From Pararhodobacter marinus (lineage in GTDB: Bacteria; Pseudomonadota; Alphaproteobacteria; Rhodobacterales; Rhodobacteraceae): 64,000 bases of DNA. A program made the translations under genes and the position numbers. This document shows, in pieces, positions 37,639 to 64,000 of the stretch. The notes below the pieces were generated by a model. That model saw only the letters and a program-made list of their open reading frames with translations. It did no database searches and was not told where the DNA came from. Positions within the stretch are counted from its first letter, which is position 1. Each line of letters begins with the position of its first letter. The DNA lies in assembly GCF_003122215.1 (NCBI RefSeq), contig NZ_QEYD01000004.1, positions 248,001 through 312,000 on the forward strand. Direction: 5' to 3'.

Positions 37639-37655
37639 GGCGCGCTTAGCGCGCC
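37639..37655. terminator. Hairpin at the convergent end of mgdD
   Basis: GGCGCGC and GCGCGCC flank TTA, which is itself the reverse of the stop codon of the minus-strand gene. No T-run is present on either side, so termination here would be weak or Rho-assisted. Confidence 0.4.
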
Positions 37656-38272
37656 ATCACCAGGTCCTGCGCCATGAGGGCCGAGGCATCGCGATGCCCG
37701 GCCATGCCATCATCCACCGACAAGACGGGGCCGTCACCCTCTGACTGGTAGCCCGGCGCGATCAGCAGGCGATCTTGAGCCTCGATCCCGTCGGGCTGGC
37801 GGGTGAAGCCCCAACACGCGCCCCCGTGCGCTCCCAGGCGCAGGCCCGAGCCCTCGTCGCGTAAGACAGGTCCGAACGCGCCGCCGTCTTCCGGCCCGCG
37901 CAGCAGCCCGATCCCGCGCAGGAAGGCCGGCTCCGCCAGCCGTGTATCGGGTGTTATCCCCAGCGCGGCACCGGGCCAGACCCAGTCGCCCGCGCCCACC
38001 AGCCGCATGTCGTTGCCCGCGATCACCGCCAGCCCAAGGAACGAGCGCAACACGCCGGCACGAGCCGCTTGCAGCCGCGTCGGTACCGGACCCTGCCCGT
38101 CATCCCCGGGCAGATGCAGGATCGGCGCGTGCGAGATCACCACCAGCGCCGCGCCGAAGCCGTGCCTCTGCAGCCCCTGCCGCAGGCTTTCCCGCAAGGG
38201 GAAATAGCCGTCTATGATATCCTCGAAAAACCGCCCCGCGACGGGAAGGCTTGCGCGGTGCCGATGGGTCAT
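37646..38272 (-). CDS. Protein of unknown function, 208 aa, in the split-oxygenase operon
   Basis: I do not recognise this protein. It starts at an ATG 10 bp after the stop of the GS-like ligase gene, so it is the last gene of the Rieske/oxygenase/ligase operon. The longer open frame upstream runs inside the ligase gene. It has no signal peptide or clear membrane segment. Visible pieces are FFEDIIDGYFPLRESLRQGL (about 15-34), GFGAALVVISHAPILHLPGD, GDWVWPGAALG and GGACWGFTRQPDGI (Cys153), ending with SVDDGMAGHRD. It could act on the ligase or oxygenase product. Its conservation with the neighbours should be tested before naming it. Confidence 0.6.
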   Translation of the reverse strand: MTHRHRASLPVAGRFFEDIIDGYFPLRESLRQGLQRHGFGAALVVISHAPILHLPGDDGQGPVPTRLQAARAGVLRSFLGLAVIAGNDMRLVGAGDWVWPGAALGITPDTRLAEPAFLRGIGLLRGPEDGGAFGPVLRDEGSGLRLGAHGGACWGFTRQPDGIEAQDRLLIAPGYQSEGDGPVLSVDDGMAGHRDASALMAQDLVMAR

Positions 38273-38282: not shown

Positions 38283-39731
38283 TCAGAACAGGTTGAAATA
38301 CTCGGCCTGTTCCCATTCCGACACCGTGGACAGGTAGCGCGTCCATTCCGCCCGTTTGAGATGCGCGAGATACCGCACGAAATCCGCGCCCAGGGCCTGC
38401 GCATAAAGCGGGCTGGCCTCGAAGGCCTGAACGGCGGCCTCCAGCGTGGCGGGAAGATGCGCCTGATCCTCGGCATAGGGCGTCAGCGTGGGCGGCGGGG
38501 GCGTGGCACCGCGAGCAAGGCCGTCGAGCCCCGACAGGATCTGCCCGGCCAGCGCGTAATACGGGTTCGCGGCGGTATCGGCGACGCGGTTCTCGATCCG
38601 CGCGGCCGGGTCGCCCGGCTGGAACAGTGCGCGCAGCATGGCGCCGCGATTGTCGGTCCCCCATTGCACGCGGTTGGGCGCCAGCTGGAAGGCGCTGAAG
38701 CGCTTGTAGCCGTTGATCGTGGGGTTGGTCAGCAGGCAGGTGGCGGGCGCATGGTCCAGAAGCCCGGCGATCCATGCCCCGGCTTCCGGCGTGGGCACAC
38801 AATCTTCCTCGGGGGTGAAGACATTGCGCCCGGTCTCGCGCGAGACCAGCGATTGATGGATATGCCAGCCATTCGCCACCGCATTGGCGACGCGCGGCTT
38901 GGGCATGAAGCTGGCATGCAGGCCCTGCCTCTGGCAGATTTCTTTCACCATCATGCGGAACAGCACGAAGCGGTCGGCCTGCATCATCGGGTCCGAGGCA
39001 TCGAAGGTGAATTCGAATTGCGACGGACCCATCTCGATTTCCATCGACCGGGGGGCAAGACCCATCGCCTCGGCCGCGCGGCGCAGATCGTCCATCAGCG
39101 GCTCGACCGCGCCGTAACGGGTTTCGGTCAGAAAGGCCCAGCCTTGAGTGGTGTTGCGGGTCGCCAGCGCTGCGGGGGGCATGGTGGCCTGATCGTGGGC
39201 AAGCCCGTCATCGCTGACCGCGAAGACCTGAAATTCGACCTCAAGCCCCATCACCGCGTCATGCCCGGTGCGCCCAAGGCCATCCATAGCCTGCCGCAGC
39301 ACACGGCGCGGCGAGACCGAGACGCGCTGGCCCGAACGATAGGCCAGATCGCACAGGATGACGGCGGAATGCGGTGACCAGGGCAGCGGGGTGAAGGTGG
39401 CGGGATCAGGGACCAGCAGCAGATCGCCCGCACCCGACAGCGACACGCCGTCCAGCGTCAGGCCGTCTTTCCACACGTCGAACACGGTGCGATGCGCGGT
39501 ATCCTTCAGGATCAGCGTCGAGGGCACCGACAGCCCGGCGGCCAGCGCCGAGCCGAGCGTCCGCGCCGTGATCGCCTTGCCGCGCAGGATGCCGTGCTGG
39601 TCGGCGAACAGCACGCGGACGGTTTCGAACCCCTCGGCCACAACCCGCGCGGCCAGTTCCGCGCCCGCGCGCACCTGATCCTCGTTCAGCAATCCGCGCT
39701 CGAACAGCGCGCCCTTGATCGCTCCGTCCAT
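38283..39731 (-). CDS. Glutamine-synthetase-like gamma-glutamyl ligase
   Basis: The 482-aa protein belongs to the glutamine synthetase superfamily: GLEVEFQVF (metal-binding Glu), ASFMPKPR, NGWHIHQSL, NPTINGYKRF and the ATP/Glu-binding ARIENRVADTAANPYYALAG are present. It is too divergent from GlnA to be housekeeping. Relatives ligate glutamate to amines, such as PuuA (putrescine), IpuC (isopropylamine) or AtdA1/TdnQ (aniline). The aniline enzyme also sits next to a Rieske dioxygenase, as here. The ATG at 39731 lies 2 bp after the stop of the oxygenase gene; GTG at 39737 is an alternative. The amine substrate is not known. Confidence 0.8.
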   Translation of the reverse strand: MDGAIKGALFERGLLNEDQVRAGAELAARVVAEGFETVRVLFADQHGILRGKAITARTLGSALAAGLSVPSTLILKDTAHRTVFDVWKDGLTLDGVSLSGAGDLLLVPDPATFTPLPWSPHSAVILCDLAYRSGQRVSVSPRRVLRQAMDGLGRTGHDAVMGLEVEFQVFAVSDDGLAHDQATMPPAALATRNTTQGWAFLTETRYGAVEPLMDDLRRAAEAMGLAPRSMEIEMGPSQFEFTFDASDPMMQADRFVLFRMMVKEICQRQGLHASFMPKPRVANAVANGWHIHQSLVSRETGRNVFTPEEDCVPTPEAGAWIAGLLDHAPATCLLTNPTINGYKRFSAFQLAPNRVQWGTDNRGAMLRALFQPGDPAARIENRVADTAANPYYALAGQILSGLDGLARGATPPPPTLTPYAEDQAHLPATLEAAVQAFEASPLYAQALGADFVRYLAHLKRAEWTRYLSTVSEWEQAEYFNLF

Positions 39732-39733
39732 GC

Positions 39734-40954
39734 TCACACCGTCGCGTCCCAGGGACAGGCCGCGCGTCGCGCATGGTCGGCGGCACGGCTCGAGGCCTGC
39801 CAGTCGGCGGTTTCGGCGATGGCATCGTTGGACAGCGGCCCCTTGATCGCGGCCGCCCCGGCATTGTGCATGGGCAGTGCGGACAGGTCGCCCTGTTCCA
39901 CCGCATCCATCATCCGCCGCAGCATCCGCCGGTAGCGGATGATCGCCACGTCCGAGCGGCCCAGATGTTCCTGCGTGCGGTCCTGGATGGCGCCCATCCC
40001 TTCGACCGCCCATTGGTCATGGACGTTGATGTCCAGCCCCATGCCCGTATAGGTCAGCGAGGCCTGTTCGGCCGGGTCGTAATGGTAATCGTTGCGGCGG
40101 TTCTTCAGCGGCGCGTAATCCGGCAGGCGATGTTCCTTCAGCCGCTGCGTGCGCATCAGATCCTTGTTCACCGGCTTGTCGAAGCTGGTAAAGACGGTGA
40201 CCCAGTAACAGGTGCGGTCATCGACGGGGACGTGCCACTGGGTGATCGTCATCTCGCGCGACATGGGGATGCAGATCGCCTCGGGGAAGATCTGGTTGGT
40301 GACGCGGACATGGGTATGGCCGTTCTCCATATGCCGCAGCGCGGTGATCTTCAGGCCGTAATCGGTTTCATCGACCTTGATCTCGGGGCGCGGATACTCG
40401 CGCAGCAGCCGGGTCATCGGAATGTCGGTCGCGCCGGCCTTGTCGCGGAACTGCTTGCCGTAGCTGTCGGCGGGGTCCTCATCCTCGAGGAAGCGGTGCA
40501 GGAACGAGGCATGCGCCGGGTCGATGCCGATTTCCAGCGCCTGCAGCCAGTTGCATTCCCACAGGCCCTTGAAGGCGAAGACATGGGTATCAGGCGCGCG
40601 GAAACAGTCGAAAGCGGGGAAGGGCGGCGGGTCGCCGGCGCCGAGATAGGCAAAGATCAGGCCCGCGCGGGTCTCGGTCGGATAGACCGGGCCTTCGGGG
40701 TCGATCATGATCGCATCGGAGGCCGGGTAATGTGTCGGCGCTTCGTCGGGCGAGGCCACTCGGGTCGCCAGCTCCAGCCCCTGCGCGCCCTGCCGCAGAA
40801 CCAGCCGTTCGCCCAGCAGGTTCACGGGCACGAGCGGCCCGTGCGCCAGTTCATCGACCAGCGCGGCGGGTTGCCAGTACTGGCGTAGCACGGCGCCCGC
40901 CGGCGTGCCGGGGGCGATGCGGGTGATGCGGTCGTTGAGTTGCTGGCTGATCAT
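39734..40954 (-). CDS. Rieske-oxygenase catalytic subunit lacking its own Rieske motif
   Basis: The 406-aa protein aligns by eye with aromatic-ring hydroxylating oxygenase alpha subunits. Its N-terminus reads RITRIAPGTPAGAVLRQYWQPAAL and GLIFAYLGAGDPPPFPAF as in that family, and D145-x-x-H148-x4-H153 (in GIDPAHASFLHRF) is the mononuclear iron site with the bridging Asp. The stretch between, which should carry CxH and CxxH cluster ligands, is replaced by ~35 residues (about 54-90) with no Cys or His pair. The upstream gene, overlapping by 4 bp, encodes a separate Rieske domain of the same family. The two probably form a split oxygenase. Confidence 0.8.
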   Translation of the reverse strand: MISQQLNDRITRIAPGTPAGAVLRQYWQPAALVDELAHGPLVPVNLLGERLVLRQGAQGLELATRVASPDEAPTHYPASDAIMIDPEGPVYPTETRAGLIFAYLGAGDPPPFPAFDCFRAPDTHVFAFKGLWECNWLQALEIGIDPAHASFLHRFLEDEDPADSYGKQFRDKAGATDIPMTRLLREYPRPEIKVDETDYGLKITALRHMENGHTHVRVTNQIFPEAICIPMSREMTITQWHVPVDDRTCYWVTVFTSFDKPVNKDLMRTQRLKEHRLPDYAPLKNRRNDYHYDPAEQASLTYTGMGLDINVHDQWAVEGMGAIQDRTQEHLGRSDVAIIRYRRMLRRMMDAVEQGDLSALPMHNAGAAAIKGPLSNDAIAETADWQASSRAADHARRAACPWDATV

Positions 40955-41352
40955 GCCTCTTGCTCCGATGCTGCCGCCTGTTCCAGCTCCACGCCCACCT
41001 GCGCCCAGATCGCGCCGTTCTCTTCCCGGACCGGCACCATCGGCACGCGGATCTGTTCGTGCATCCGCGAGCCTTCGGGTTCAGCCGGTTGTTCGACGCA
41101 CTGCCCCGTGCGGTCGAAATGCCAGCCGTGGAAGGGGCAGCGCAGGCCATTGTCTTCCAGCCGACCATAGCACAGGTCCGCGCCACGATGCGGGCAATGA
41201 CGGCCGATCAGGCCCAGCTGCCCCTCTTCATCGCGAAACAGCACCAGCCGCCGGCCTTGCAGCGTTACGGGGATCAGAGGGCGCGGGCGGTCCAGATCGG
41301 CAATGGCCGCGATCCGGATCCAGCCGTCTGTGGCGGTGTCGGCGGGTGGCAT
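40951..41352 (-). CDS. Stand-alone Rieske [2Fe-2S] protein
   Basis: The 133-aa product is a single Rieske domain: C53-P-H55 and C72-P-F-H75 give the CxH-x16-CxxH ligands of a [2Fe-2S] cluster. The context HRGADLCYGRLEDNGLRC and FHGWHFD is like the Rieske half of ring-hydroxylating oxygenase alpha subunits rather than a typical small ferredoxin. The ATG at 41352 is preferred, with GGGAG about 10 nt upstream; ATG at 41391 would add 13 residues but lacks a site. It overlaps the catalytic-subunit gene by 4 bp. No dedicated reductase gene is seen in the operon. Confidence 0.82.
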   Translation of the reverse strand: MPPADTATDGWIRIAAIADLDRPRPLIPVTLQGRRLVLFRDEEGQLGLIGRHCPHRGADLCYGRLEDNGLRCPFHGWHFDRTGQCVEQPAEPEGSRMHEQIRVPMVPVREENGAIWAQVGVELEQAAASEQEA

Positions 41353-41376: not shown

Positions 41377-41391
41377 GTGCGGTAATCGCAC
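41377..41391. promoter_or_regulatory. 15-bp palindrome in the Rieske/IclR divergent promoter
   Basis: GTGCG-GTAAT-CGCAC is an inverted repeat with 5-nt arms, located between the Rieske gene start and the divergent iclR-type gene. IclR regulators often bind palindromes of this size, so it is a candidate operator. Confidence 0.4.
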
Positions 41392-41438: not shown

Positions 41439-42197
41439 ATGAGCGATCGCGATTTTGCCGCGACCTTGGCCAAGGGGCTCGACGTGCTGGCCTGTTTCGA
41501 GCAGAGCGCGCAGAACCTGACCCTGCCCGAGATCACGCGCCGGACAGGGCTCGACCGCGCCGTGGTGCGCAGGCTCTGCCTGACGCTGACGCGCTGCGGC
41601 TATCTGGAAGAGGGCGAGACGGGCCTGCGGCTTGCGCCTCGGGTGCTGACGCTGGCGGGCGGCTATCTGGGCGGGCTGGAGGTCGGGCGCGTCGTGCAGC
41701 CCATTCTGCGCCACGCGGCGGAAGAGCTGGACATGGAGGTGGCGCTGGCCACCCGCGACCGGCTGCAGGCGGTCTATGTCGACCGGGCGGCCCCTGCCTC
41801 GGCGCGTGTCACGCTGGGTTTCGGGATCGGCAGCACGCTGCCGCTTCTGCATACGGCGGTGGGGCGGATGCTGCTGGCCCGCTCGGCGCCCGAGGTGCTG
41901 GACGCGGCGCTTGCCCTTCCCGCCCGACGCTACAGCGAGGCGACGGATACCGATCCCGCGCGTCTGCGCACCGCCATTGAGGCCGCGCGCGAGCAAGGCT
42001 ATTGCATCGCCCGCGACGAGTTCGAGCTGGGCGCGGCGGGGGTGGCTGTGCCGGTGGGCGCGCTGGGACAGACGCCTTTCGTGCTGGCCACCACCGCCTC
42101 GGTCAACGCCTTCGACGATCCCGCGCGGCTGGACCGGGTGCTGGATATCCTGCGCCAGAGCGCGCTGAGCATCGGCCGGGTGCGGGGCGGGCGCTGA
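41439..42197 (+). CDS. IclR-family transcriptional regulator
   Basis: The 252-aa protein has an N-terminal winged helix (about residues 8-70; LTLPEITRRTGLDRAVVRRL is the recognition region). The C-terminal effector domain of the IclR type is about 85-250, with VALATRDRLQAVYVDRA, TAVGRMLLA and GYCIARDEFELGAAGVAVPV. The start at 41439 follows GGGAGA by 9 nt; the open frame extends far upstream, but that part overlaps the divergent genes. It is related in layout to PcaR/PobR-type regulators of aromatic catabolism, in line with control of the divergent Rieske operon. It is convergent with iorB (9 bp). Confidence 0.88.
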   Translation: MSDRDFAATLAKGLDVLACFEQSAQNLTLPEITRRTGLDRAVVRRLCLTLTRCGYLEEGETGLRLAPRVLTLAGGYLGGLEVGRVVQPILRHAAEELDMEVALATRDRLQAVYVDRAAPASARVTLGFGIGSTLPLLHTAVGRMLLARSAPEVLDAALALPARRYSEATDTDPARLRTAIEAAREQGYCIARDEFELGAAGVAVPVGALGQTPFVLATTASVNAFDDPARLDRVLDILRQSALSIGRVRGGR

Positions 42198-42206: not shown

Positions 42207-43745
42207 TCAGGCGGCGAAGCTTTCGATAGTTTTCAGCGTGCCGTCCAGCGCGCTGCCTTCCTCGTCCTGCAGGGCGGCGGTCATCAGGCGGCGCGCCCAG
42301 TCGGCGGCATCCTCGCGCCCCTCGACCATGGCGATCCCGGTCATCACCCGGTCGAACTTGCCCAGACCGCGCGCATGGGTGTCGGAATAGCCCTTGATCA
42401 GCCGCCGCGCCTGCAGCGTGGCGACGGCCAGATCGTAATCCGTCCCTGCCCGCGCCAGCGCGCTGGCGTACCAGCGTTCCAGATGCGCGCGCTCTTCGGC
42501 ATGGCGCAGGCTCATCGGACGAAAGCGCCGCATCGACGCCAGCGCGTGCAATTGCAGGAACGGCAGCAGCCGGTCGGTGCGCAGCCGGCGGCCCTTGTTC
42601 ACGCGCCGGTCGATCCAGCCCATCAGCCGGGGCCGGTCGGTGATCGCCTGACCCAGCGCACGCGGCAGCAGGCTCACGATCTCTTCGGCGCGGGGATGGG
42701 TGTATTCGGTCAGCTGCATGACCTCGGCCCCGCCCATCTCGGCACGGATGCGTTCCAGCCGTTCGGGCCGGGTCTTGGCATCGGCCACGCGGATCACGTC
42801 GTCATAGGCCATCGCATTGGCAAGGTATTTCGCCGCCGTCACCGAGAAGGTCCAGTCGCGTTCGGCTCCGTCGAGGGCCAGCGCGCGATCCAGGTGGTCG
42901 AGATACTCGGCGCCGTAGGCCGGATGCTGGAATTCCACCACCTTGCGCAGACCGGCCTGCGCCATCGGCTGAACCGGGGCGGGCATCGCCGCGATGCGCG
43001 CCTGCAGGTCGTCCCACGCCTTGCGCAGCCGTGCCGGGCCCGTGGTCGCGGCGGCAGCGGCGGGGCGTGGCACCGGATGCGTGGCGGGCTGAACCCCGGC
43101 CAACGCCGCCTGCCGTCCGGTGGCAAAGGCGCGCAGCGAGGCATCGACCCCCTTGCCGCCCGCGCGGATCGCGGCTTCGAAGGCCTCGGGCGGGAAGGGC
43201 AGGGCGCCCGAGCCCGACAGCGCGCCGAACAGGCTGGCCGAGATGACCGAACCCACATCGAGCGCCGCCGCCTCGAAATCGGCCAGCACCAACCCGCGCG
43301 CCGCGACCTCGGCGGCCGCGCGCACCTCGCCTGCGTCGGCGATGCCATCCCCCGGCGCCATCTTCTCGCTCACCGCCAGCGCGCGGTGGGTCGAGCCGAT
43401 CAGCGTGGTGCGGTCGGGCGTGACGAAGCCCCGCATGATCGCGCGGCCCGCCTCCATCATCTCGGCGGCGATCACCACGTCCACGTCGCCCGCCGCCGGG
43501 GCCAGCGAAAAGACCGGGGCGGACGACCCGGCGGGCGCCATCTCGATGTAATAGATCGTCGCGCCGGTGCGCTGCGCCACGCCCGCGACCGAGGTCGCCT
43601 GCACCGCGTAGCCCTGCGCGCGGGCCAGCGCCTCGATCCAGCCGGTCAGCACGCCGCCGCCCTGTCCGCCGACCGCCATCACGGCCAGCTTGATCACCTC
43701 GGCCCCCAGGGCGGGGGGCTGTTCGGGGGTGAAGGGCAGTGTCAT
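42207..43745 (-). CDS. iorB: Indolepyruvate ferredoxin oxidoreductase subunit beta
   Basis: The 512-aa protein begins with a pyruvate-ferredoxin-oxidoreductase gamma-like domain, VMAVGGQGGGVLTGWIEALA (about 23-42) and SVAGVAQRTGATIYYIE. It continues with a long C-terminal region (about 210-512) typical of fused or extended IorB forms. The start at 43745 overlaps the iorA stop by 4 bp. With IorA it oxidatively decarboxylates arylpyruvates such as indolepyruvate to the aryl-acetyl-CoA, passing electrons to ferredoxin. It is the last gene of a six-gene operon and ends 9 bp from a convergent regulator gene. Confidence 0.85.
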   Translation of the reverse strand: MTLPFTPEQPPALGAEVIKLAVMAVGGQGGGVLTGWIEALARAQGYAVQATSVAGVAQRTGATIYYIEMAPAGSSAPVFSLAPAAGDVDVVIAAEMMEAGRAIMRGFVTPDRTTLIGSTHRALAVSEKMAPGDGIADAGEVRAAAEVAARGLVLADFEAAALDVGSVISASLFGALSGSGALPFPPEAFEAAIRAGGKGVDASLRAFATGRQAALAGVQPATHPVPRPAAAAATTGPARLRKAWDDLQARIAAMPAPVQPMAQAGLRKVVEFQHPAYGAEYLDHLDRALALDGAERDWTFSVTAAKYLANAMAYDDVIRVADAKTRPERLERIRAEMGGAEVMQLTEYTHPRAEEIVSLLPRALGQAITDRPRLMGWIDRRVNKGRRLRTDRLLPFLQLHALASMRRFRPMSLRHAEERAHLERWYASALARAGTDYDLAVATLQARRLIKGYSDTHARGLGKFDRVMTGIAMVEGREDAADWARRLMTAALQDEEGSALDGTLKTIESFAA

Positions 43746-45904
43746 GGCTGAACCTCGCTGAAACCGAGCTGGCGCGACTGGCGGCGGCGGGCCAGCCAGC
43801 CGATCAGGCCCTGACGCCAGCCGTTCAGGCGGCGCTCCCACGGGCCGGGATTGTGGACCACGCGCGCCTCGTAGAAGGACGGGCAAAGCACGGCGGCTTC
43901 CGACACCTCGCCGCAATTGCCGCAGCCCACGCAGGAGGTGTCGATCGACGCGACGGGATCGTCGCGCAGCGGATCGTCCAGCCGTTTGAGCGACAGCGAC
44001 GGGCAGCCCGACAGGCGGATACAGGCATGATCGCCCGTACACACGCTTTCATCGACACCGAAACGCGGCACTTCGACCCGGCGGCCTTCTCGCATCGCGG
44101 CGGCGCGCAGGGGCTTTTCGCGGCGCTGTTTGTTCAGCATGCATTCCGACGAGGCGACGATGACTTTCGGCCCTTCGCTCTCGGTGGTCAGCGCGTCGCG
44201 CAGGATGTCGCGCATCCCGGCCACGTCATAGGTCCGGTCGACCTGCCGCACCCAGTCGATGCCGATGCCCCTGAGCGCCTTTGAAATAGGGTTGTTGGTC
44301 GCCTTGGTCGGGTTCTTGGCGCGGGACGAGGGGATGTCCTGCCCGCCGGTCGCGGCCGAGTAGTAATTGTCCACGATCACCGCGACGCCGTCGGACCTGT
44401 TGAAGGCCATGTTGCCGAAGCTGGAAGTCAGGCCGTTATGCCAGAACCCGCCATCGCCGATCACCGCGATCGAGCGCTTCTCGGCGCCCCCTTTCTTGCC
44501 GCCGTCGAAGGCCGCGTTCGAGGCCGGGCCCAGCCCGTAGCCCATCGTCGCGCCGCCGATATTGAAGGGCGGTAGGCTGGCGAACAGGTGGCAGCCGATA
44601 TCGGCGCTGATCTGGTGTTCGCCCAGCTCCTGCTGCACCAGCTTCATCGCCGCGAAGATCGGGCGTTCGGGGCAGCCGGTGCAGAAACCGGGCGGACGGA
44701 TCGGCACGGTCTTGGACAGGTCCGGGATCGCCGGCGCCTCGGTATTGGGGGCCAGAACCTGTGCGGGCAGAAGGTCGGGCGCGTTCCGGCGCAGAAAGGT
44801 TTCGAACGCCTCTTTCATCACCGCGCCGGTATATTCGCCGACCATCGGGAAGATGTCCTTGCCATGCAGCCGCGTGGTCGTGCCCGAGCGCAGCATCATC
44901 GTGGCAAAAGCCTGTTCGATGAATTCGGGCTGTCCCTCTTCCACCACCAGCACCGCGTCCTTGCCCGCGCAGAATTCGGCGAACTCGTCGGGCAGCAACG
45001 GGTAGGTCACGTTCAGGCAATAGATGGGCACCTGCGTCTGGCCATAGAGATCGGCCAGACCCATCCGCTGCAGCGCGCGGATCACGCCGTTATACATGCC
45101 ACCCTGACAGACGATGCCGACGGGCGCCCGGTCCGGGCCGAAAACCTCGTTCAGCTTGTGCTCGCGGATGAAGCGCTCGGCTGCGGGCCAGCGGTTGTCG
45201 ATCTTGTCGTGTTCCTGCGCATAGCTCATCGGCGGCAGCACGATGCGCGAGACATTGCGCTGCGGCTTGGCCAGGGCCTCGCGCACGCTGAGCGTGGGGC
45301 GCCTGTTGTCGCGGGTCTGGAACTGGCCGGTGACATGGCAGGCGCGGATACGCACCATCAGCATGACGGGGGTGTTGGAGGCTTCCGACAGCTCGAACCC
45401 GTCGCCCACTGCCTTGACGATCGAGGGCAGGTTGGGGCGCGGGTCCAGCAGCCAGAACTGCGACTTCATCGCGAAGGCGTGGCTGCGTTCCTGCATGATG
45501 CTGGAACCCTCGCCGTAATCCTCGCCCACGATCATCAAGGCGCCGCCGGTCACACCTGACGAGGCCAGGTTGGCCAGCGCGTCCGAGGCGACATTTACAC
45601 CCACCGGCCCCTTGAAGGTCACGGCCCCCCGGATCGGGTAATGCACGGAGGCCGCGAGCATCGCCGCCGCGGCCGCTTCCGAGGCATTGGCCTCGAATCG
45701 CACGTCCAGCTCGCCCAGCAATTCCTCGGCATCGGCCAGAACGTCCATCAGGTGGCTGATCGGTGCCCCCTGATAGCCGCCAACATAGCCGACCCCGTTT
45801 TCCAAGAGCGCCTTGGTGATCGCCAGGATCCCCTCGCCGGTGAAGGTCTCACCCGCGCCCAGCCGCAGATGCTGGACTTCGGCTTTGAAGGACCGTTCCG
45901 CCAT
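43742..45904 (-). CDS. iorA: Indolepyruvate ferredoxin oxidoreductase subunit alpha
   Basis: The 720-aa protein has a pyrimidine-binding N-terminal domain (GYQGAPISHLMD, AVTFKGPVGVNVASDALAN), a thiamine-diphosphate site with VIGDGGFWHNG and VDNYYSAATGG, and a C-terminal ferredoxin-like segment. In that segment CTGDHACIRLSGCPS and CVGCGNCGEVSEAAVLCPS supply ligands for Fe-S clusters. It uses thiamine diphosphate to decarboxylate arylpyruvates. The gene starts 20 bp after the VOC gene and overlaps iorB by 4 bp. The pair fits tryptophan or indole-compound breakdown, but other arylpyruvates are possible. Confidence 0.88.
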   Translation of the reverse strand: MAERSFKAEVQHLRLGAGETFTGEGILAITKALLENGVGYVGGYQGAPISHLMDVLADAEELLGELDVRFEANASEAAAAAMLAASVHYPIRGAVTFKGPVGVNVASDALANLASSGVTGGALMIVGEDYGEGSSIMQERSHAFAMKSQFWLLDPRPNLPSIVKAVGDGFELSEASNTPVMLMVRIRACHVTGQFQTRDNRRPTLSVREALAKPQRNVSRIVLPPMSYAQEHDKIDNRWPAAERFIREHKLNEVFGPDRAPVGIVCQGGMYNGVIRALQRMGLADLYGQTQVPIYCLNVTYPLLPDEFAEFCAGKDAVLVVEEGQPEFIEQAFATMMLRSGTTTRLHGKDIFPMVGEYTGAVMKEAFETFLRRNAPDLLPAQVLAPNTEAPAIPDLSKTVPIRPPGFCTGCPERPIFAAMKLVQQELGEHQISADIGCHLFASLPPFNIGGATMGYGLGPASNAAFDGGKKGGAEKRSIAVIGDGGFWHNGLTSSFGNMAFNRSDGVAVIVDNYYSAATGGQDIPSSRAKNPTKATNNPISKALRGIGIDWVRQVDRTYDVAGMRDILRDALTTESEGPKVIVASSECMLNKQRREKPLRAAAMREGRRVEVPRFGVDESVCTGDHACIRLSGCPSLSLKRLDDPLRDDPVASIDTSCVGCGNCGEVSEAAVLCPSFYEARVVHNPGPWERRLNGWRQGLIGWLARRRQSRQLGFSEVQP

Positions 45905-46539: not shown

Positions 46540-47010
46540 TCAGAACTCGTGCTTGCGGATGTTGCGCAGCATCTTCTGCAGCGTGCCCAGAAAGGCCTGC
46601 CGCTCGTCGTCCGAGATGTCCCGGAACATGGTATCCTGCGCGTCGATCATGTGGGGCCAGAGGCCCTCGAACACGGCGAGCCCGGCCGCGGTGATGTGGA
46701 TCCGCGTCGCGCGGCTGTCGCTCGCATCGGCCTCGCGCCGGACAAGCCCCTCGGCTTCCAGCTGGTCCAGCGCCCGGCTCAGCGTCGATTGCTCGGTCAC
46801 GGCATAGACCGCCAGTTCACGGATCAGCGGCGCGGGCACCACCGACAGCACCGCCAGCGCGCGCATCTTCGGCGTGGACAACCCGTTCTGGCCCAGCGCC
46901 GCGCGCACCTCGGCATTGTAGCGGCCCATGATGCGGTTCATCAGGTAAGGCGCGAAGCCTTCCAGCCCCGTTTCGCCCAGCCGTGTCGGTCGTCTTCCTT
47001 GATCGCTCAT
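46540..47010 (-). CDS. MarR-family transcriptional regulator
   Basis: The 156-aa protein has the MarR winged-helix layout, with an N-terminal dimerisation helix, STPKMRALAVLS, TEQSTLSRALDQLEAEGLVRR as recognition helix and wing start, and DSRATRIHITAAG as the wing. Regulators of this family control indole-acetate and other aromatic pathways by releasing DNA on ligand binding. Its start overlaps the upstream oxidoreductase stop by 4 bp, so it is made with the operon and probably regulates it. An AT-rich palindrome at 49433-49442 is a candidate operator. Confidence 0.88.
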   Translation of the reverse strand: MSDQGRRPTRLGETGLEGFAPYLMNRIMGRYNAEVRAALGQNGLSTPKMRALAVLSVVPAPLIRELAVYAVTEQSTLSRALDQLEAEGLVRREADASDSRATRIHITAAGLAVFEGLWPHMIDAQDTMFRDISDDERQAFLGTLQKMLRNIRKHEF

Positions 47011-48569
47011 GCGCCCAGCCTTTTCGCCGCGTTGTAACCCGATCCGCCGCCGAGGCCCGGCCCCGGATGCGTCGAGGCGCCGATATGGATCAGGCCGCGA
47101 ACAGGGCCAACCCCGTTGGTGGAATGCGCGAAGGGACGCCAGATAAAGAATTGGTCAATGCCGCAATGCCCGCCATAGGGATCGCCGCCCACAAGGTTGA
47201 TGTTGAGCGCTTCCAGATCCGCCGGCGAATAGGCGCGGCGGGCCAGCTTGATCTGGTCGAAATCCTTGATGTGGCGGGCAAGGATGGCTTCGATCCGGTC
47301 CGCGAAGGCTTCGCGCGTGGCCTCGTCCCATTCCGTGCCCGCGATCTGGCCGGCGGCATCGCCCTTGATGACGCGCGGCGCGTCGGGGATTTGCAGCCAC
47401 AGGATCGCTTTGCCCTCGGGGCAGCGCGTGGGATCAAGACGCGAGGGCTGGCCCACGCAGATCGTGGGCACCTCAGGGAACAGCCCGCGCTCGGCCTCGT
47501 TGGCGGATTTCGACACCGCGTCTATGCCGTCGGACAGATGGATGAGCGCGACGTCATCGAGCCCCGCGGTGTGCCATTCGGGCGCGCGGTCCAGCGCGAA
47601 ATGCAGCTGGAAATCGCCGCGTCCGTGGCGGAAGGCGGGCAGGGCCTCGCGCTCCTGGCTCAGTTGCAGGTCGGGCAGAAGACGGTCGTACAATTGTCCC
47701 GGCGCGACAGAGGCCAGCACCGACCGCGCCGGGATCGTTTCGCCCGTGCTCAGCGTCACGCCGGTCACGCGGCTTTCGCTTGTCTCGATCCGGGCCACAT
47801 CGGCGCCGGTGCGGAACGTTCCGCCATGGGCTTCGATCAGCGACCGGAACGCTGCGACCGCCGCGCCCGATCCGCCCTTGACCACGGGGGCGCCGGCCGC
47901 TTCCAGCGCGAAGGCGATGACCTTGCCCATCTGCGCCGAATAGGTGGATTCGGGCGTCAGCCCGCAATGCAGCACCCAGGGCGCCCACAGGGCCTGTACC
48001 AGAGGGTTTTGATACCGCGATTCCAGCCAGCCGCGCGCCGGGGCCAGCGCCTGTCCCATCCACGCGGCCAGCCCCCGCAGCCCCCGCTTGCGCACCTGTC
48101 CGAACAGCAGCTTCGCGGTACTCCAGGACCACAGCTCGCCGCCCAGCAGGCCGAACAGGAAGGGCGCATCGGCCCCGATCTGTCCGGTATCCGCCGCGTG
48201 TCGATCGCCGTCGCCTTCGGCCAGCGCATTGAACGCCGCGCGGTTCTGCGCGGCATCCATGCTGAGTACCAGCGCGCTGCCATCGGGGCGCAGAACGGCG
48301 GTCGGATGCGGGCTGTGGCAGTATTCGAACCCGTGCTTTGCCAGATGCGGTCCCAGCGCCGCACCGGCGGGCGAGGTCATGAACAGGACCCATGTCGCGG
48401 CCATCACGTCATGCTGAAAACCGGGCAGCGTCGCCGCTTCGGTCATCAGGCAGCCACCCAGCCGGTCCTCGCGTTCAAGAACTGTGACCCTGTGGCCCTT
48501 CAGCGCCAGCAGCGCCGCGGCGACGAGCCCGTTGATACCGGACCCGATGATGACGTGATCGGCCGCCAT
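47007..48569 (-). CDS. FAD-dependent oxidoreductase, phytoene-desaturase-like (copy 1)
   Basis: The 520-aa protein has the N-terminal FAD motif VIIGSGINGLVAAALLALKG (about 6-25) with the acidic LEREDRLGG, and a C-terminal motif THPGPGLGGGSGYNAAK closing the flavin site, as in the CrtI/amine oxidase family. Middle blocks VGQPSRLDPTRCPEGKA and LVGGDPYGGH are shared with the paralog at 49464-51032. Such proteins act on diverse small molecules, not only carotenoids. It starts 5 bp after the isatin-hydrolase-like stop and overlaps marR. A role in indole-compound oxidation is inferred from position. Confidence 0.8.
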   Translation of the reverse strand: MAADHVIIGSGINGLVAAALLALKGHRVTVLEREDRLGGCLMTEAATLPGFQHDVMAATWVLFMTSPAGAALGPHLAKHGFEYCHSPHPTAVLRPDGSALVLSMDAAQNRAAFNALAEGDGDRHAADTGQIGADAPFLFGLLGGELWSWSTAKLLFGQVRKRGLRGLAAWMGQALAPARGWLESRYQNPLVQALWAPWVLHCGLTPESTYSAQMGKVIAFALEAAGAPVVKGGSGAAVAAFRSLIEAHGGTFRTGADVARIETSESRVTGVTLSTGETIPARSVLASVAPGQLYDRLLPDLQLSQEREALPAFRHGRGDFQLHFALDRAPEWHTAGLDDVALIHLSDGIDAVSKSANEAERGLFPEVPTICVGQPSRLDPTRCPEGKAILWLQIPDAPRVIKGDAAGQIAGTEWDEATREAFADRIEAILARHIKDFDQIKLARRAYSPADLEALNINLVGGDPYGGHCGIDQFFIWRPFAHSTNGVGPVRGLIHIGASTHPGPGLGGGSGYNAAKRLGA

Positions 48570-48574
48570 GCGCG

Positions 48575-49366
48575 TCAGCCCTTCGGCACCAGCGCCAGCG
48601 CGCGGATGGGCGAGCCGGTGCCCTTGACGATCTTCAGCGGCGCCGCGATCAGGATCGCCCCCTTGGCCGGCAGCTTGTCCAGATTGGCAAGCGAGGCCAG
48701 GCCGAAACGGTTATTGGCGTGCAGCAGGTTGTGCGCGGGGAAGGGGGGCGTCATGCCGCCCGCAAGGCCCGCATCGGTGCCGATGCATTGGCTGCCCCAG
48801 CCGACGATGCCCTTGCCGATCAGGTATTCGATCACCTCGGCGGTCGGTCCGGGCGTGTGCGGGCCGGTTTCGTTGGCATTGAGAAACAGCGCCTCGTCAT
48901 GCGCGCGCTTGTCCCAGTCCGACCGCAGGACGACCCATTCGCCGGCCTTGATCTCGCCATGCTCGGCTTCCCACGCTTTCACATGGTCGATGGTCAGCAG
49001 GAAGTCGGGGTCTTCGGCGCATTCGGCGCTGAAATCCAGCACGTTCACCGGCGCGACGACCCGCTTGATGTCCAGCGTGTCGGTATAGCCGTCTTCGAAA
49101 TCCTTGCCCGTCACCCAATGGTGCGGCGCGTCGAAATGGGTGCCGGTATGCTCGCCCAGCACCATCCAGTTCCACGCGAAGAAGGGGCCGTCATCGTCGT
49201 ATTCGCTGATCTTGTGGATTTCGACCTTCGGCGTGTTGCGCGCGAAATCTTCGGGCAGCTGCAGGATCGGCGTGTCCGGACCCAGCGTGCCGGTGCAATC
49301 CACCACCTCGATTCCGCCCGAAGCCAGATGCTCGGCAAGTTGCGTCAAAAGATTGGCTGCGCTCAT
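48575..49366 (-). CDS. Cyclase-family hydrolase, isatin-hydrolase-like
   Basis: The 263-aa enzyme has the cyclase-family motif H73-T-G-T-H77-F-D79-A-P-H-H83, whose His and Asp residues bind a divalent metal (Mn or Zn). The family includes kynurenine formamidase and isatin hydrolase. The surrounding text, SEYDDDGPFFAWNW and DWDKRAHDEA, is very like isatin hydrolase from marine Rhodobacteraceae as I remember it; this needs an alignment. Isatin hydrolase opens isatin to isatinate. The ATG at 49366 follows GGGAGA by 7 nt. It is the first gene of a six-gene operon divergent from an ABC importer set. Confidence 0.8.
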   Translation of the reverse strand: MSAANLLTQLAEHLASGGIEVVDCTGTLGPDTPILQLPEDFARNTPKVEIHKISEYDDDGPFFAWNWMVLGEHTGTHFDAPHHWVTGKDFEDGYTDTLDIKRVVAPVNVLDFSAECAEDPDFLLTIDHVKAWEAEHGEIKAGEWVVLRSDWDKRAHDEALFLNANETGPHTPGPTAEVIEYLIGKGIVGWGSQCIGTDAGLAGGMTPPFPAHNLLHANNRFGLASLANLDKLPAKGAILIAAPLKIVKGTGSPIRALALVPKG

Positions 49367-49432
49367 GGCGATTCTCCCTGTCACGGGCCTGTTTCGGCCC
49401 TTCACAAAAACAGACTAGACAGAGTTATATGC

Positions 49433-49442
49433 ATTTGCAAAT
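49433..49442. promoter_or_regulatory. AT-rich palindrome in the divergent catabolic promoter
   Basis: ATTTGCAAAT is a perfect palindrome, extended imperfectly to TTATATGCATTTGCAAATA (49425-49443). It lies between the divergent isatin-hydrolase-like and FAD oxidoreductase genes. Position and AT-rich symmetry suit a MarR operator controlling both arms. Confidence 0.4.
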
Positions 49443-49463
49443 ATCTTTTCGACTCGAGGGGGC

Positions 49464-51032
49464 ATGGATTTGGACGATCTTGACGCGGTGCTGATCGGCG
49501 CCGGACACAATTCTCTCGCCTGTGCGCTGATGCTGGCCGCCAAGGGCTGGCGCGTCGGCGTGTTCGAACGCGCGGACGTGCCGGGTGGCGCGGTGAAAAG
49601 CGGCGAATACACCCTGCCGGGCTTTCGGCACGACTGGGCGGCGATGAACCTGTCGCTGTTCGCCGGAAGCCAGTTTCATAAGCAATTCGTAGAAGAACTG
49701 GCCGGGCATGGCCTGTCTTTCGTGCCGGTCAACCGGCCCTTTGCCTCGGCCTTTCCGGATGGGACCTGGCTGGGTGTCGATCAGGATGCGGGGATCACGC
49801 GCGCCCGGATCGCGGCCCTGTCGGAGGCCGACGCGCGGACCTGGGATGCGCTGACGGCTGGTTTCGGCGACCGCGCCGAAGACGTCTTCGCGCTGCTCGG
49901 TTCGCGCATGAAGATACATGCATTAGCATATTTTCTCTGGGGCCTGTGGCGCCGCCGCGGGGTTTCGGGCGCGCTGGACCTGGCGCGGTTCTTGCTGGCC
50001 TCGCCCCGCGCCTGGCTGACCGAGACCTTCGAGACGGAAAAGCTGCGCGCGATGCTGGGCGCCTGGGGAATGCATCTGGATTACGCGCCCGACAGCGCGG
50101 GCGGCGCGCTGTTTCCCTATCTCGAAGGGATGGCGGGGCAGGCTTTCGGCATGGCGTTGGGGCAGGGGGGCGCCGATACCGTCACCAAAGCGCTGGTCCG
50201 CGCCATCGAGGCCCGGGGCGGTCGCGTCGAATGCGGTACCGAGGTCGCGCGCATCGAGCATGAGAACGGCATCGCCCGCGCGGTGATCCTTGCCGACGGG
50301 CGGCGTGTCGCGGCGAACAAGGCGGTGATCGCCAATCTGGCGCCGAATGCGCTGATCCGGCTGACCGGGGGCACCGGCGATGCCGGTTTCGACGCGCGGA
50401 TGGAAAGCTACGCCCATGCGCCGGGGACGATGATGATCCATCTGGCGATGGACAGCCTGCCCGACTGGTCGGCGGGCGAGGATCTGAAGGGCGTGGCCTA
50501 TGTCCATCTGGCGCCCTCGCTTGATCAGATGGCCCGGACCTATCAGCAGGCCAAGGCGGGGCTTTTGCCCGACGAGCCGGTGATCGTGGTGGGCCAGCCC
50601 ACGGTCTTCGACCCCTCCCGCGCGCCCGAGGGCAAGCATGTCCTGTGGATGCAGGTCCGCATGGTGCCGGGCCGGATCGAGGGCGACGCGGCCGGGCAGA
50701 CAAGCGCCCGCGACTGGACCGAGGCCGCCGAACCCATGGCCGAGCGCGCGCTCGACATTCTTGAACGCTATGCGCCGGGCGCGCGGGCCAAGATCCTTGG
50801 CCGCCGCATCGTCACCCCCGCCGAACTGGAGGCCGACAATCCCAACCTCGTGGGCGGCGATCAGGTCTGCGGCAGCCACCATCTGGCGCAGCATTTCCTC
50901 TTCCGTCCTGCCCCCGGCCATGCCGATGGCAGCACGCCGATCCGCAACCTGCACCTGACCGGCGCCGCCGTCTGGCCGGGGGGCGGAACGGGCGCGGGGC
51001 CGGGCTATCAGCTTGCGCAGCGCCTGACATGA
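49464..51032 (+). CDS. FAD-dependent oxidoreductase, phytoene-desaturase-like (copy 2)
   Basis: The 522-aa protein is a paralog of the product at 47007-48569. It has the FAD motif VLIGAGHNSLACALMLAAKG (about 9-28), FERADVPGG, PGFRHDWAAMNLSLF, VGQPTVFDPSRAPEGKH, LVGGDQVCGSHHLAQHFLFRP and the C-terminal GGGTGAGPGYQLAQ. It is the first gene of the plus-strand arm and is followed 58 bp later by a peptide-type binding protein. The two copies flank one divergent promoter and may act together or on successive intermediates. The substrate is unknown. Confidence 0.8.
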   Translation: MDLDDLDAVLIGAGHNSLACALMLAAKGWRVGVFERADVPGGAVKSGEYTLPGFRHDWAAMNLSLFAGSQFHKQFVEELAGHGLSFVPVNRPFASAFPDGTWLGVDQDAGITRARIAALSEADARTWDALTAGFGDRAEDVFALLGSRMKIHALAYFLWGLWRRRGVSGALDLARFLLASPRAWLTETFETEKLRAMLGAWGMHLDYAPDSAGGALFPYLEGMAGQAFGMALGQGGADTVTKALVRAIEARGGRVECGTEVARIEHENGIARAVILADGRRVAANKAVIANLAPNALIRLTGGTGDAGFDARMESYAHAPGTMMIHLAMDSLPDWSAGEDLKGVAYVHLAPSLDQMARTYQQAKAGLLPDEPVIVVGQPTVFDPSRAPEGKHVLWMQVRMVPGRIEGDAAGQTSARDWTEAAEPMAERALDILERYAPGARAKILGRRIVTPAELEADNPNLVGGDQVCGSHHLAQHFLFRPAPGHADGSTPIRNLHLTGAAVWPGGGTGAGPGYQLAQRLT

Positions 51033-57382: not shown

Positions 57383-58159
57383 ATGCGGGGATTGGACGGC
57401 AAGGTTGCAATCGTTCCGGGCGGCGCGACAAAGATCGGACGCGCCGTGGTGGCCGCGTTCCGTGAAGCGGGCGTGCGGGTCATGGTGGCCGATATCGACG
57501 CCGAGGGCGGCGCGGCGATGGTGGCGGACGGCGTCGGCTTCACCCGCTGTGATCTGCGCAGCGACGACGATATCGCGTCCTTGGTTCAGGCCACGCGCGA
57601 CGCCTATGGGCGTATCGATTTTCTGGTCAATGTCGCCTGCTCATATCTCGATAACGGGGCGGAGTCGCCGCGTGCGGAATGGCTGGAAGCGCTCGACGTG
57701 AATATCGTGGGCTCGGTCATGCTGATGCAGGCCGCGCGCAAGGATCTGGCGGCGACGAAAGGCGCCATCGTCAATTTCGGCTCGATCTCGGCCCGCGTGG
57801 CGCAGACCGGGCGCTGGCTCTACCCGGTCAGCAAGGCGGCGATCCTGCAGCTTACCCGCAATCAGGCGATGGATCTTGCGCCAGACGGCATCCGCGTCAA
57901 CGCCGTCAGCCCCGGCTGGACATGGTCCAACATCATGGACCAGCTCACCGGCGGCGACCGGGCGAAAACCGATACCGTCGCCGCGCCCTTCCACCTGCTG
58001 GGCCGCACCGGGCATCCCGAAGAGGTCGCGAGCACCGTGCTCTTCCTGTGCTCGGACGAGGCCAGCTTCATCACCGGCACGGATATCCGCGTCGATGGCG
58101 GCTATACCGCCATGGGCCCGGAACAGGCCGTCCCGGCGATCCCGAAACTTATGGAATGA
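57383..58159 (+). CDS. Short-chain dehydrogenase/reductase of the indole-oxygenase-like operon
   Basis: The 258-aa protein has a modified glycine motif P12-G-G-A-T-K-I-G19 for NAD(P), VNVACS in place of NAG, and YPVSK as the catalytic YxxxK. C-terminal GTDIRVDGGYTA is typical of the family. In indole-degradation clusters an SDR follows or precedes the flavoprotein monooxygenase and is proposed to oxidise its product. It is the first gene of a three-gene operon (24 bp before the next). The start ATG follows AGGGGAAAGTC. Confidence 0.82.
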   Translation: MRGLDGKVAIVPGGATKIGRAVVAAFREAGVRVMVADIDAEGGAAMVADGVGFTRCDLRSDDDIASLVQATRDAYGRIDFLVNVACSYLDNGAESPRAEWLEALDVNIVGSVMLMQAARKDLAATKGAIVNFGSISARVAQTGRWLYPVSKAAILQLTRNQAMDLAPDGIRVNAVSPGWTWSNIMDQLTGGDRAKTDTVAAPFHLLGRTGHPEEVASTVLFLCSDEASFITGTDIRVDGGYTAMGPEQAVPAIPKLME

Positions 58160-58182
58160 CAAAGAAAAACAGGGAGATGACC

Positions 58183-59415
58183 ATGAGAAAGATCACCATT
58201 ATCGGCGGCGGCCAGTCCGGGTTTCAACTGGCCATCGGCCTTCTGCAACAGGGCTATCAGGTGCGCGTCGTGCAGAACCGCGACGCGCAGGACATGGCGA
58301 CCGGCAAGGTCCTGTCCAGTCAGTGCATGTTCGGCGACGCGATCGAGGCCGAGCGCGCGCTGGGCCTCGATTTCTGGACCGACCATTGCCCGCCGGTCGA
58401 AGGCATCAGCTTCACCGTGCCCCATCCCGAGCAGCCGGGCGCGAAGGCGGTCGACTGGGCCTCGCGCCTTGATCGCAATGCCTATTCGGTGGACCAGCGG
58501 GTGAAGATCCCGCGCTGGATGGCCGAGTTCGAGAAACTGGGCGGGCGGCTGGTGCTGAAGGAAGCGGGCATCGCCGATATGGAGATGTACGCGCGCGAGG
58601 ACGATCTGGTGATCGTCGCCTCGGGCAAGGGCGACGTGGGCAAGATGTTCGAACGCGACGCCTCGAAATCGCCCTATGACCGGCCGCAGCGCGCGCTGGC
58701 GCTGACCTATGTGAAGGGCATGGCACCGCGGCCGGAGTATTCCGCGGTCAACTTCAACCTGATCCCCGGCGTGGGCGAGTATTTCGTCTTCCCGGCGCTG
58801 ACCACCACCGGGCCTTGCGACATCATGGTGTTCGAAGGCGTGCCCGGCGGCCCGATGGATTGCTGGGCCGATGTGAAAAGCCCCGAGCAGCATCTGGAAA
58901 CCTCGAAACGCATCCTGAACACCTTCCTGCCGTGGGAGGCCGAGCGCTGCCAGGATGTCAGCCTGACGGATGACAACGGCTTCCTTGCGGGCCGCTTCCC
59001 GCCGACGGTTCGCAAGCCCGTCGGCACGCTGCCCTCGGGCGCGCGGGTGCTGGGGCTGGGGGATGCCGTGTGCCTGAATGACCCCATCACGGGACAGGGA
59101 TCCAACAACGCGGCCAAGGCGGCGCGGGTCTATCTGAAGCGCATTCTCGACCATGGCGACCGCCCCTTCGACGCGGCATGGATGCAGGGCACGTTCGACG
59201 CCTATTGGGATTATGCGCAATGGGTGGTCAACTGGACCAACATGATGCTGGCCCCGCCGCCGCCCTTCATCCTGGAAATCATGGGCACCGCCTGCGTCGA
59301 GCCGCGTCTGGCCCACCGCATCGCCAACGCCTTCGACGATCCGCGCGATTTCTTCCCGTGGTTCGCCGATCCCGATGCGGCTTCGGCCTATCTGTCCGAG
59401 CTGAAAGCGGCCTGA
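58183..59415 (+). CDS. StyA/indole-monooxygenase-like flavoprotein (group E)
   Basis: The 410-aa protein fits group E two-component flavoprotein monooxygenases: FAD motif IIGGGQSGFQLAIGL (about 6-20) and C-terminal GLGDAVCLNDPITGQGSNNA. Length matches StyA (about 415). Such enzymes epoxidise styrene and indole using reduced FAD supplied by a partner reductase. The ATG at 58183 is chosen, since GGGAG lies 6 nt upstream; an ATG 6 bp earlier sits on the ribosome-binding site. With an AraC regulator, an SDR and the flavin reductase, the set looks like an indole (ind/iif) rather than styrene operon, as no StyC/StyD homologs are visible. Confidence 0.85.
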   Translation: MRKITIIGGGQSGFQLAIGLLQQGYQVRVVQNRDAQDMATGKVLSSQCMFGDAIEAERALGLDFWTDHCPPVEGISFTVPHPEQPGAKAVDWASRLDRNAYSVDQRVKIPRWMAEFEKLGGRLVLKEAGIADMEMYAREDDLVIVASGKGDVGKMFERDASKSPYDRPQRALALTYVKGMAPRPEYSAVNFNLIPGVGEYFVFPALTTTGPCDIMVFEGVPGGPMDCWADVKSPEQHLETSKRILNTFLPWEAERCQDVSLTDDNGFLAGRFPPTVRKPVGTLPSGARVLGLGDAVCLNDPITGQGSNNAAKAARVYLKRILDHGDRPFDAAWMQGTFDAYWDYAQWVVNWTNMMLAPPPPFILEIMGTACVEPRLAHRIANAFDDPRDFFPWFADPDAASAYLSELKAA

Positions 59416-59433
59416 GCCAGAGGAGGAGAGATC

Positions 59434-59928
59434 ATGGGCATGTCCGTCGATCCCGGTCAGTTCCGGTCCGCCATGGCGCGGTTTCCCGGCGCGGTGACGA
59501 TCATCACCACGCTGACTCCGCAGGGACGGCGCGGGATCACCGCGACGGCGGTCTGTTCGGTGACGGCGGATCCGCCCAGCCTGCTGGTCTGCGTCAACCG
59601 CGCCACCGGCACCTGCCAGGGCATCCTTGAAAGCGGGCGCTTCGCGGTGAACCTGTTGCCCGATCCGTCGGGCGACGTGGCGATGCGCTTTGCCGGGGCG
59701 GGCGGCGCCACGGGCGAGGACAAGTTCGCGCTGGGTGACTGGCGTGAAGACGCGGCGGGCCTGCCGGTTCTGGCCGATGCGCGGGTGGCCTTTTCCTGTG
59801 AGGTGGCCGAAAGCCTGACGGCCGGGACGCATCAGATCTTCATCGGCCAGATCACCGATATCAGCGAGGCCGATGGCGCCGCGCTGCTTTACGAGCAATC
59901 GCGCTTTCACCGTCTCGCCCCGCTCTGA
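59434..59928 (+). CDS. Flavin reductase, StyB/IndC-like
   Basis: The 164-aa protein is of the flavin reductase (FMN/FAD-binding split-barrel) family: FPGAVTIITTLTPQGRRGITATAV (about 14-37), SLLVCVNRATGTC and a C-terminal HQIFIGQI. It is expected to reduce FAD with NADH for the StyA-like oxygenase encoded 18 bp upstream. The size agrees with StyB (about 170 aa). AGGAGGAG precedes the ATG, a strong ribosome-binding site. A terminator hairpin follows its stop. Confidence 0.88.
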   Translation: MGMSVDPGQFRSAMARFPGAVTIITTLTPQGRRGITATAVCSVTADPPSLLVCVNRATGTCQGILESGRFAVNLLPDPSGDVAMRFAGAGGATGEDKFALGDWREDAAGLPVLADARVAFSCEVAESLTAGTHQIFIGQITDISEADGAALLYEQSRFHRLAPL

Positions 59929-63806: not shown

Positions 63807-64000
63807 GCCGACTCGGCTTTGGGGAAACAGCGAAGTCACCGCCATGCGGTGCGCGAAACTGGAGTTGATCATGCCAATTCGTAGCACCGGACCCTTTGAT
63901 GTCAAAAGGGAAATGATGTTCCCAGGAATAAAAACATATGCCTGTCGTGAATTAATGTTGACATTTTGGTCTGCCGTTGGCGTACTTTGGTCCGGACCAA
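63807..64000. promoter_or_regulatory. Promoter region at the right edge with operator-like palindromes
   Basis: TTGGTCCGGACCAA (63987-64000) is a perfect 14-bp palindrome; its half TTTGGTC also occurs at 63965-63971, 21 bp before the second copy. A -35-like TTGACA lies at 63958-63963 on the plus strand. GGGAA-ATGATG-TTCCC at 63908-63923 is another inverted repeat. The region serves the minus-strand binding-protein gene and probably a gene beyond the window. A GntR site is the best guess for the first palindrome. Confidence 0.5.

Follow-up and report, generated by a model that had tools for sequence, protein, structure and literature searches.

A free-standing Rieske protein (E) and a catalytic oxygenase subunit that carries no Rieske cluster (D) are encoded by neighbouring genes in Pararhodobacter marinus, and the two are probably halves of one Rieske oxygenase. 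Oxygenases of this sort are normally a single protein, in which the cluster and the iron share one chain; this intact-type rule of both centres in one alpha chain is not met here, where the cluster ligands occur solely in E and the iron ligands solely in D. The split is conserved, has a single origin, retains the residues of both centres and co-occurs with a third protein (T). The existence of a complex, its stoichiometry, the path of the electrons, the role of T and the substrate are inferred.

The stretch of DNA analysed (hereafter the window) comprises 64,000 nucleotides of a genome of 4.49 Mb in 30 contigs. The operon lies on the minus strand, in the order E, D, glutamine-synthetase-like gene and T, and its features are listed below together with the divergent regulator.

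41439..42197, plus strand: divergent IclR-type regulator (PF01614 4.1e-24, PF09339 7.2e-15)
40951..41352, minus strand: E, free-standing Rieske [2Fe-2S] protein, 133 aa from ATG (PF00355, open reading frame, ligands)
41128..41196, minus strand: codons of E residues C53 to H75, the cluster-binding stretch (residue alignment, consensus)
39734..40954, minus strand: D, catalytic oxygenase subunit, 406 aa, with a mononuclear iron site and without the cluster motif (PF19301, model, ligands)
40685..40759, minus strand: D residues 66-90, site of the two missing cluster loops (alignments with intact enzymes)
40496..40522, minus strand: codons from D145 (bridge) to H153 (iron ligand) of D (alignment with isophthalate dioxygenase)
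40016-40018, minus strand: codon of D313, the third iron ligand of D (alignment with isophthalate dioxygenase)
38283..39737, minus strand: glutamine-synthetase-like enzyme, 484 aa (PF00120 1.8e-78)
37646..38272, minus strand: T, 208 aa, PCC/PPC-like predicted fold, found in the split form only (locus and genome co-occurrence)

The E and D frames are both open over these coordinates and overlap by 4 bp (40951-40954), as the first-pass annotation had stated. D and the synthetase-like gene also overlap by 4 bp, and a gap of 10 bp separates the latter from T. An alternative GTG start at 41391, upstream of the ATG, would extend E to 146 aa. The regulator is nearest to the PcaR/PcaU/PobR group (TIGR02431, 1.7e-52), with a score (178.2 of 284.75 bits) below the cut-off of that model. 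Past the IclR gene lie indolepyruvate-oxidoreductase-type alpha and beta genes (42207-45904) with a 4-bp overlap, both of which are also present in Pararhodobacter aggregans (L002). Elsewhere, the window holds two amine-oxidase-type FAD proteins on opposite strands, flanking a putative cyclase-family hydrolase (47007-51032), and, in a row, genes for an SDR, a StyA-like monooxygenase of the styrene/indole type (scoring below the cut-off of its model) and a flavin reductase (57383-59928). An ammonium-transporter-family gene (60335-61708) and a Peripla_BP_6 substrate-binding protein (62571-63905), with a GntR-looking regulator (named by eye) close by, lie farther along.

Residues retained in the two chains

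E matches the Rieske family PF00355 (1.3e-20) and consists of this domain only, with nothing else in its 133 aa. The residues proposed beforehand as cluster ligands, C53, H55, C72 and H75, are all present. Across the cluster loops (residues 51-86) the E consensus equals the intact-family consensus at 36 of 36 columns, and in the stretches outside them at 17/22, 9/12, 10/18 and 11/22 columns. Full agreement in the loops is what would be expected if the gene had been copied, complementary loss had followed and the tip of E still met the same partner surface. Identity to the best-matching intact Rieske domains reaches 63-77%, whereas the other Rieske proteins encoded in the window's genome are about 29-40% identical to E. 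The solved structures nearest to E by sequence (9ina, 7fjl and 7fhr) are of the phthalate-/isophthalate-dioxygenase type, and an identical trio is found for D.

D matches PF19301 (LigXa_C, 9.3e-29), and the C-x-H...C-x-x-H cluster motif is absent from its sequence. Alignment with intact relatives indicates that about 29 residues are gone, corresponding to the two cluster-binding loops, and that residues about 66-90 are unlike the intact sequence, with Rieske strands retained on either side. An earlier description, by which the cluster segment was lost and replaced by some 35 unrelated residues at 54-90, thus holds for the loops and not for the shell, whose strands stay. Judged by these alignments, D has lost just the cluster loops and not the whole Rieske domain. 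The predicted model of D agrees best in fold with isophthalate dioxygenase (9ina, 6.2e-29, 405 alignment columns), and its Rieske shell is confidently modelled (10-residue mean pLDDT of 93-97 over residues 41-110).

In isophthalate dioxygenase, the part of the source available describes iron held by H177, H182 and D337, with D174 bridging the centres, which lie 12.5 Å apart between subunits (PMC12445078). By alignment, with positions read by hand, these three ligands correspond to H148, H153 and D313 of D, and D174 corresponds to D145. The first-pass annotation had placed D145, H148 and H153 in the iron site; the two histidines remain as ligands, D145 is reassigned as the bridging aspartate because it aligns with D174, and the third ligand becomes D313. 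D therefore meets the phthalate/isophthalate dioxygenase iron-site criterion of two histidines, one aspartate and a bridging aspartate. All four residues are invariant in 20/20 split and 61/61 intact sequences (window and the best 80 of 587 relatives). Purifying selection acts on both genes, with dN/dS of 0.04-0.09 for D and 0.04-0.19 for E, each from five chosen pairs.

Occurrence and origin of the split form

The relatives sampled are the best 80 of 587 confirmed, those most like D, and more distant ones lie outside the sample. Flanks extend at most 6 kb, less on some contigs; one locus (L065) stops within the oxygenase gene, and nothing downstream of it is covered. Among these 80, 19 are split, as is the window, and 61 are intact. 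A frame with the Rieske motif lies directly upstream of D in all 19 split loci, of which 11 share the 4-bp overlap seen in the window. Among the intact loci of the same 80, none of the 61 has a separate Rieske motif frame within 900 bp upstream, and all 61 carry the motif in the chain. The nearest named relative of D is that of P. aggregans (94%), among the best 80 of 587 and with the reservation that records near the window's own genome may be omitted. One split locus (L014) comes from a metagenome bin labelled Granulosicoccaceae.

Genomes of the same family, a sample that overlaps those of the locus set, give the same division. Of 394 such genomes, 46 match D at 1e-120, with one match each; in 10 the alignment starts from residue 1 (split) and in 36 only from about residue 77-90 onwards (intact type). 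The nine split genomes other than the window's own, partly of the same species, were fetched and have two frames each, and 20 fetched of the 36 intact-type genomes have a single frame with both motifs. In G220, one of these 36, the D match is interrupted by a stop. The split system belongs to a group of Rhodobacter-related bacteria, with P. aggregans and Roseobacter sp. GAI101 among its cultured carriers. Recurrence of the adjacent pair in other genomes had been proposed as a check and is met in the 19 further loci and the nine further genomes; the outcomes named beforehand as refuting, namely membership of D in a non-Rieske family, a sequencing frameshift and a lack of co-occurrence, were not found.

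In phylogenies of the iron domain (83 rows, 317 columns) and of the Rieske domain (85 rows, 105 columns), the 20 split members each time form a single clade within the intact enzymes, with SH-aLRT support of 98 in both. In each tree this clade groups with seven intact sequences, six of which are common to both (L020, L024, L025, L030, L033 and L038). Both trees come from quick searches and have very long outgroup branches and an unstable root, and the Rieske tree carries a long-branch warning that includes L026. Among the outgroups, L128 and L129 were left out, no motif-bearing frame having been recovered, as were L127 from both trees and L124 and L126 from the iron-domain tree. One further alignment (A2) holds 28 of the 81 sequences, 18 of the 20 split and 10 of the 61 intact.

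The single split clade in each tree, with nearly the same neighbours, points to one duplication with complementary losses within one subfamily, an origin supported at the level of sequence comparison. Derivation of both pieces from the same subfamily, by duplication and loss of one function each, had been suggested earlier, and agrees with the shared nearest intact family, the one clade in each tree and the constant adjacency. The alignment to intact alpha subunits, also proposed at that stage, identifies E as the Rieske domain and D as an alpha chain that lacks only the cluster loops. Pairwise distances of E, D and T are correlated (r of 0.63-0.79, with 0/2000 permutations as high; L013, a near copy of L012, excluded). 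Such correlations are expected from shared descent and therefore provide no evidence of contact.

The synthetase-like enzyme, electron supply and the third protein

The role of the synthetase-like neighbour, and T itself, are additions to what the first-pass annotation had described. The synthetase-like gene accompanies the oxygenase in 80 of the 81 loci (window and the best 80 of 587), whether split or intact, the exception being L065, where the contig ends inside the oxygenase. Accompanying the intact forms too, it is uninformative about the split. Its nearest solved relative by far is NpaA1 (2.3e-96, 326 bits against 169 for the next), which, in the part of the source available, glutamylates 1-naphthylamine before the Rieske dioxygenase acts (PMC11335346). 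The neighbour is accordingly a probable gamma-glutamyl amide synthetase, its glutamylation activity being inferred from similarity. Since NpaA1 is the nearest relative, the substrate of the oxygenase is, by analogy, likely to be a gamma-glutamyl amide made from an amine by the adjacent synthetase. Homarine catabolism was considered as an identity of the system and set aside, nothing fitting having been found in the literature; for 4-aminobenzoate catabolism, a separate literature search found no paper on a pathway that uses such an oxygenase. Ten loci (window and the best 80 of 587), five split and five intact, contain a small tautomerase-like gene (including L017:7730-8137 and L068:8788-9126). 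The L068 copy matches CHMI (PF02962, 2.6e-10) and the L017 copy has no Pfam match at 1e-8; the gene is a hint of aromatic ring degradation.

No reductase gene was found in or beside the window's operon. In four split loci (L009:3422-5050, L011:3572-5251, L012:3608-5287 and L013:3589-5293), the opposite strand upstream of E encodes a flavodoxin together with an FprA-like reductase, and the pair has no match in the other fetched loci (best 80 of 587). The nearest solved relative of the NADPH reductase of L012 is FprA (1.2e-45). This proximity to E suggests, for that subgroup, a chain from NADPH through reductase and flavodoxin to E and D, and a Rieske oxygenase fed by flavodoxin would be unusual. 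The window's own genome contains only partial matches to the reductase of this subgroup and no match to its flavodoxin, the latter an empty search that shows little.

T separates the two forms. Clustering of neighbouring frames finds it in 20/20 split and 0/61 intact loci (window and the best 80 of 587), and when the fetched loci are searched with a T profile at E up to 1, the 19 split loci of the best 80 match and no others; the window's own copy falls outside its locus record (L001). Strong matches occur in 10 of the 394 family genomes, the same 10 that are split, and in 0/36 of the intact-type genomes; a weak match (2.2e-7) occurs in G312, a genome without D at 1e-120. In a class-wide sample, T is found in one of 385 genomes, the window's own, and five of the 385 are from the window's family as far as the list shows. 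T lies directly after D in seven split loci (L009, L011-L013 and L017-L019) and elsewhere after the synthetase. It is the least constrained gene, with dN/dS of 0.09, 0.14 and 0.42 in three pairs, the last being the window against L002, and saturated synonymous change in two others.

Five T proteins match no Pfam family at E up to 10, give one stray NCBIfam match (0.064), and a T profile search of the PDB gives one match (0.57). The predicted model averages a pLDDT of 69; residues 11-120 reach 73-94, and the tails are poor. Its seven best Foldseek entries have E-values of 1.0e-3 to 1.6e-2, none below 0.001, and TM-scores of 0.25-0.44; they include the PPC protein 2dt4, and the other six presumably belong to the PCC/PPC family. 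Profile comparison (hhalign) with ten tandem PCC-type proteins, nine of them found by PF03479, gives a probability of 93.9% and an E-value of 2.6e-8. These PCC-type proteins related to T (L092:1402-2235 and L137-L145) are mostly about 290 aa long, and one adjoins an AMP-ligase-like frame. PF03479 has no match in the window's own genome. The predicted fold of T thus resembles PCC/PPC (DUF296), with a modest match. Plant PPC proteins interact through the PPC domain and are predicted to be trimers, according to the portion of the source available (PMC8056045). A trimeric T scaffold on a trimeric oxygenase would be attractive, but it is untested and its role inferred.

Proposed mechanism and comparison with known systems

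In the preferred reading, that of one oxygenase in two halves, an intact phthalate-dioxygenase-type gene would have been duplicated in one ancestor, one copy being trimmed to the Rieske domain (E) and the other losing the cluster loops alone (D). A reductase encoded elsewhere would deliver electrons to the [2Fe-2S] cluster of E, from which they would pass via D145 to the mononuclear iron (H148, H153 and D313), the putative site of O2 activation. Most likely, E would be bound stably to D, with its cluster tip occupying the place that the Rieske tip of the neighbouring subunit takes in a normal head-to-tail trimer, and T would most likely help to keep E in place on the trimer of D. The adjacent synthetase-like enzyme would probably make the gamma-glutamyl amide substrate, as in aniline and 1-naphthylamine degradation. 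A more specific arrangement can be put forward only tentatively, and we would hesitate to rely on it: a three-protein oxygenase with a dead Rieske shell in each D, a living E docked beside it and a PCC-like T trimer on the three-fold axis. If true, it would have two Rieske folds per iron site and represent a previously undescribed class of oxygenase subunit. Several points count against the preferred reading: the Rieske shell retained by D may obstruct E, the window's operon has no reductase gene beside it, the fold match of T is modest, and T is the least constrained gene.

E could instead be a mobile Rieske-type ferredoxin that reduces D, fed directly in passing contacts, without being a subunit. 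It is a small separate protein, and the flavodoxin and FprA-like reductase adjacent to E in four split loci would, as far as gene content goes, equally suit a ferredoxin-like E. However, the ancestry of E lies in the Rieske domain of the oxygenase itself, it keeps the intact-family consensus throughout the cluster loops, and its pairing with D is strict, with overlapping genes in most of the split loci. As a mode of action this possibility is not excluded, and the inferred ancestry counts against it; we regard it as unlikely.

Far less probable is that D is no longer an oxygenase and serves some other purpose, with E a leftover or working elsewhere. The electron-delivering part of the domain is indeed gone from D, and activity itself has not been demonstrated; yet the bridge and iron ligands are invariant in every split sequence, both D and E are under purifying selection, and none of the split loci examined lacks E. 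That an intact gene was cut by a sequencing frameshift or an error of assembly can practically be ruled out, and was rejected. Nothing was found in favour of such an error: E and D both hold the strands around the cluster loops and hence are not halves of one frame; the layout recurs in the other loci and genomes (partly the same species), and in the tested pairs dN/dS stays under 0.2 for E and under 0.1 for D.

For the preferred reading of E and D as two halves of one enzyme, the interest lies in the link between the centres. In Rieske oxygenases, the cluster of each subunit hands its electrons on to the iron of its neighbour, and what the covalent link between cluster and iron domains contributes is hard to test. 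Here that link has been severed by evolution and intact relatives can serve as controls, which makes it possible to mix, titrate or mutate each centre independently, in a natural system for studying how electrons move from one protein chain to another. The split also illustrates clearly how, inside a single enzyme domain, a duplication can be followed by losses that complement each other, and T would represent a new type of partner protein for an oxygenase.

In the chlorophyllide a oxygenase (CAO) of the alga Micromonas pusilla, cluster and iron are on different chains, as the published account also implies. Like the present system, it is a Rieske oxygenase made of two polypeptides, but it acts on a chlorophyll substrate, and no T-like protein is described in the portion of the text available (PMC9615114). 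The other comparisons likewise rest on portions of their sources. NdmCDE, the N7-demethylase for 7-methylxanthine of Pseudomonas putida CBB5, has a catalytic subunit without a Rieske cluster, the cluster on another protein and a need for a further protein (PMC4408171). In contrast to the free-standing E of 133 aa, the Rieske domain there forms one chain with the reductase, and the additional protein is GST-like, whereas T has no Pfam match and a PCC-like predicted fold (PMC4408171). The AtdA (aniline) and NpaA (1-naphthylamine) dioxygenase systems share a glutamine-synthetase-like enzyme beside a Rieske oxygenase, but have large and small oxygenase subunits and their own reductase gene, and the available text does not mention that the cluster is split off (PMC11335346). 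Systems of the aniline-dioxygenase type encode large and small oxygenase subunits, an amidotransferase-like enzyme and a reductase together, and none of these is among the four genes of the window's operon. IadDE, the indole-3-acetate oxygenase of Variovorax (iadD/iadE), was considered and rejected, since its small subunit is, in the part of the source available, a cluster-less scaffold and its large subunit holds both centres.

The isophthalate and phthalate dioxygenases (IPDO/PDO) of Comamonas testosteroni KF1 are the nearest solved relatives of E and D, with equal bridge and iron ligands by alignment. In these enzymes, as far as the available part of the source describes them, one chain holds cluster and iron, in place of the two chains and T found here (PMC12445078). 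The plant and prokaryote conserved (PCC/PPC, DUF296) domain is related to T through predicted fold and profile link, T itself lying below Pfam detection. No published account of the E/D/T system was found in the open-licence literature. Centres on separate chains are already known, from NdmCDE and the two-chain Micromonas CAO; the present system differs from these in its lineage, in the free-standing E, in the empty Rieske shell of D and in T.
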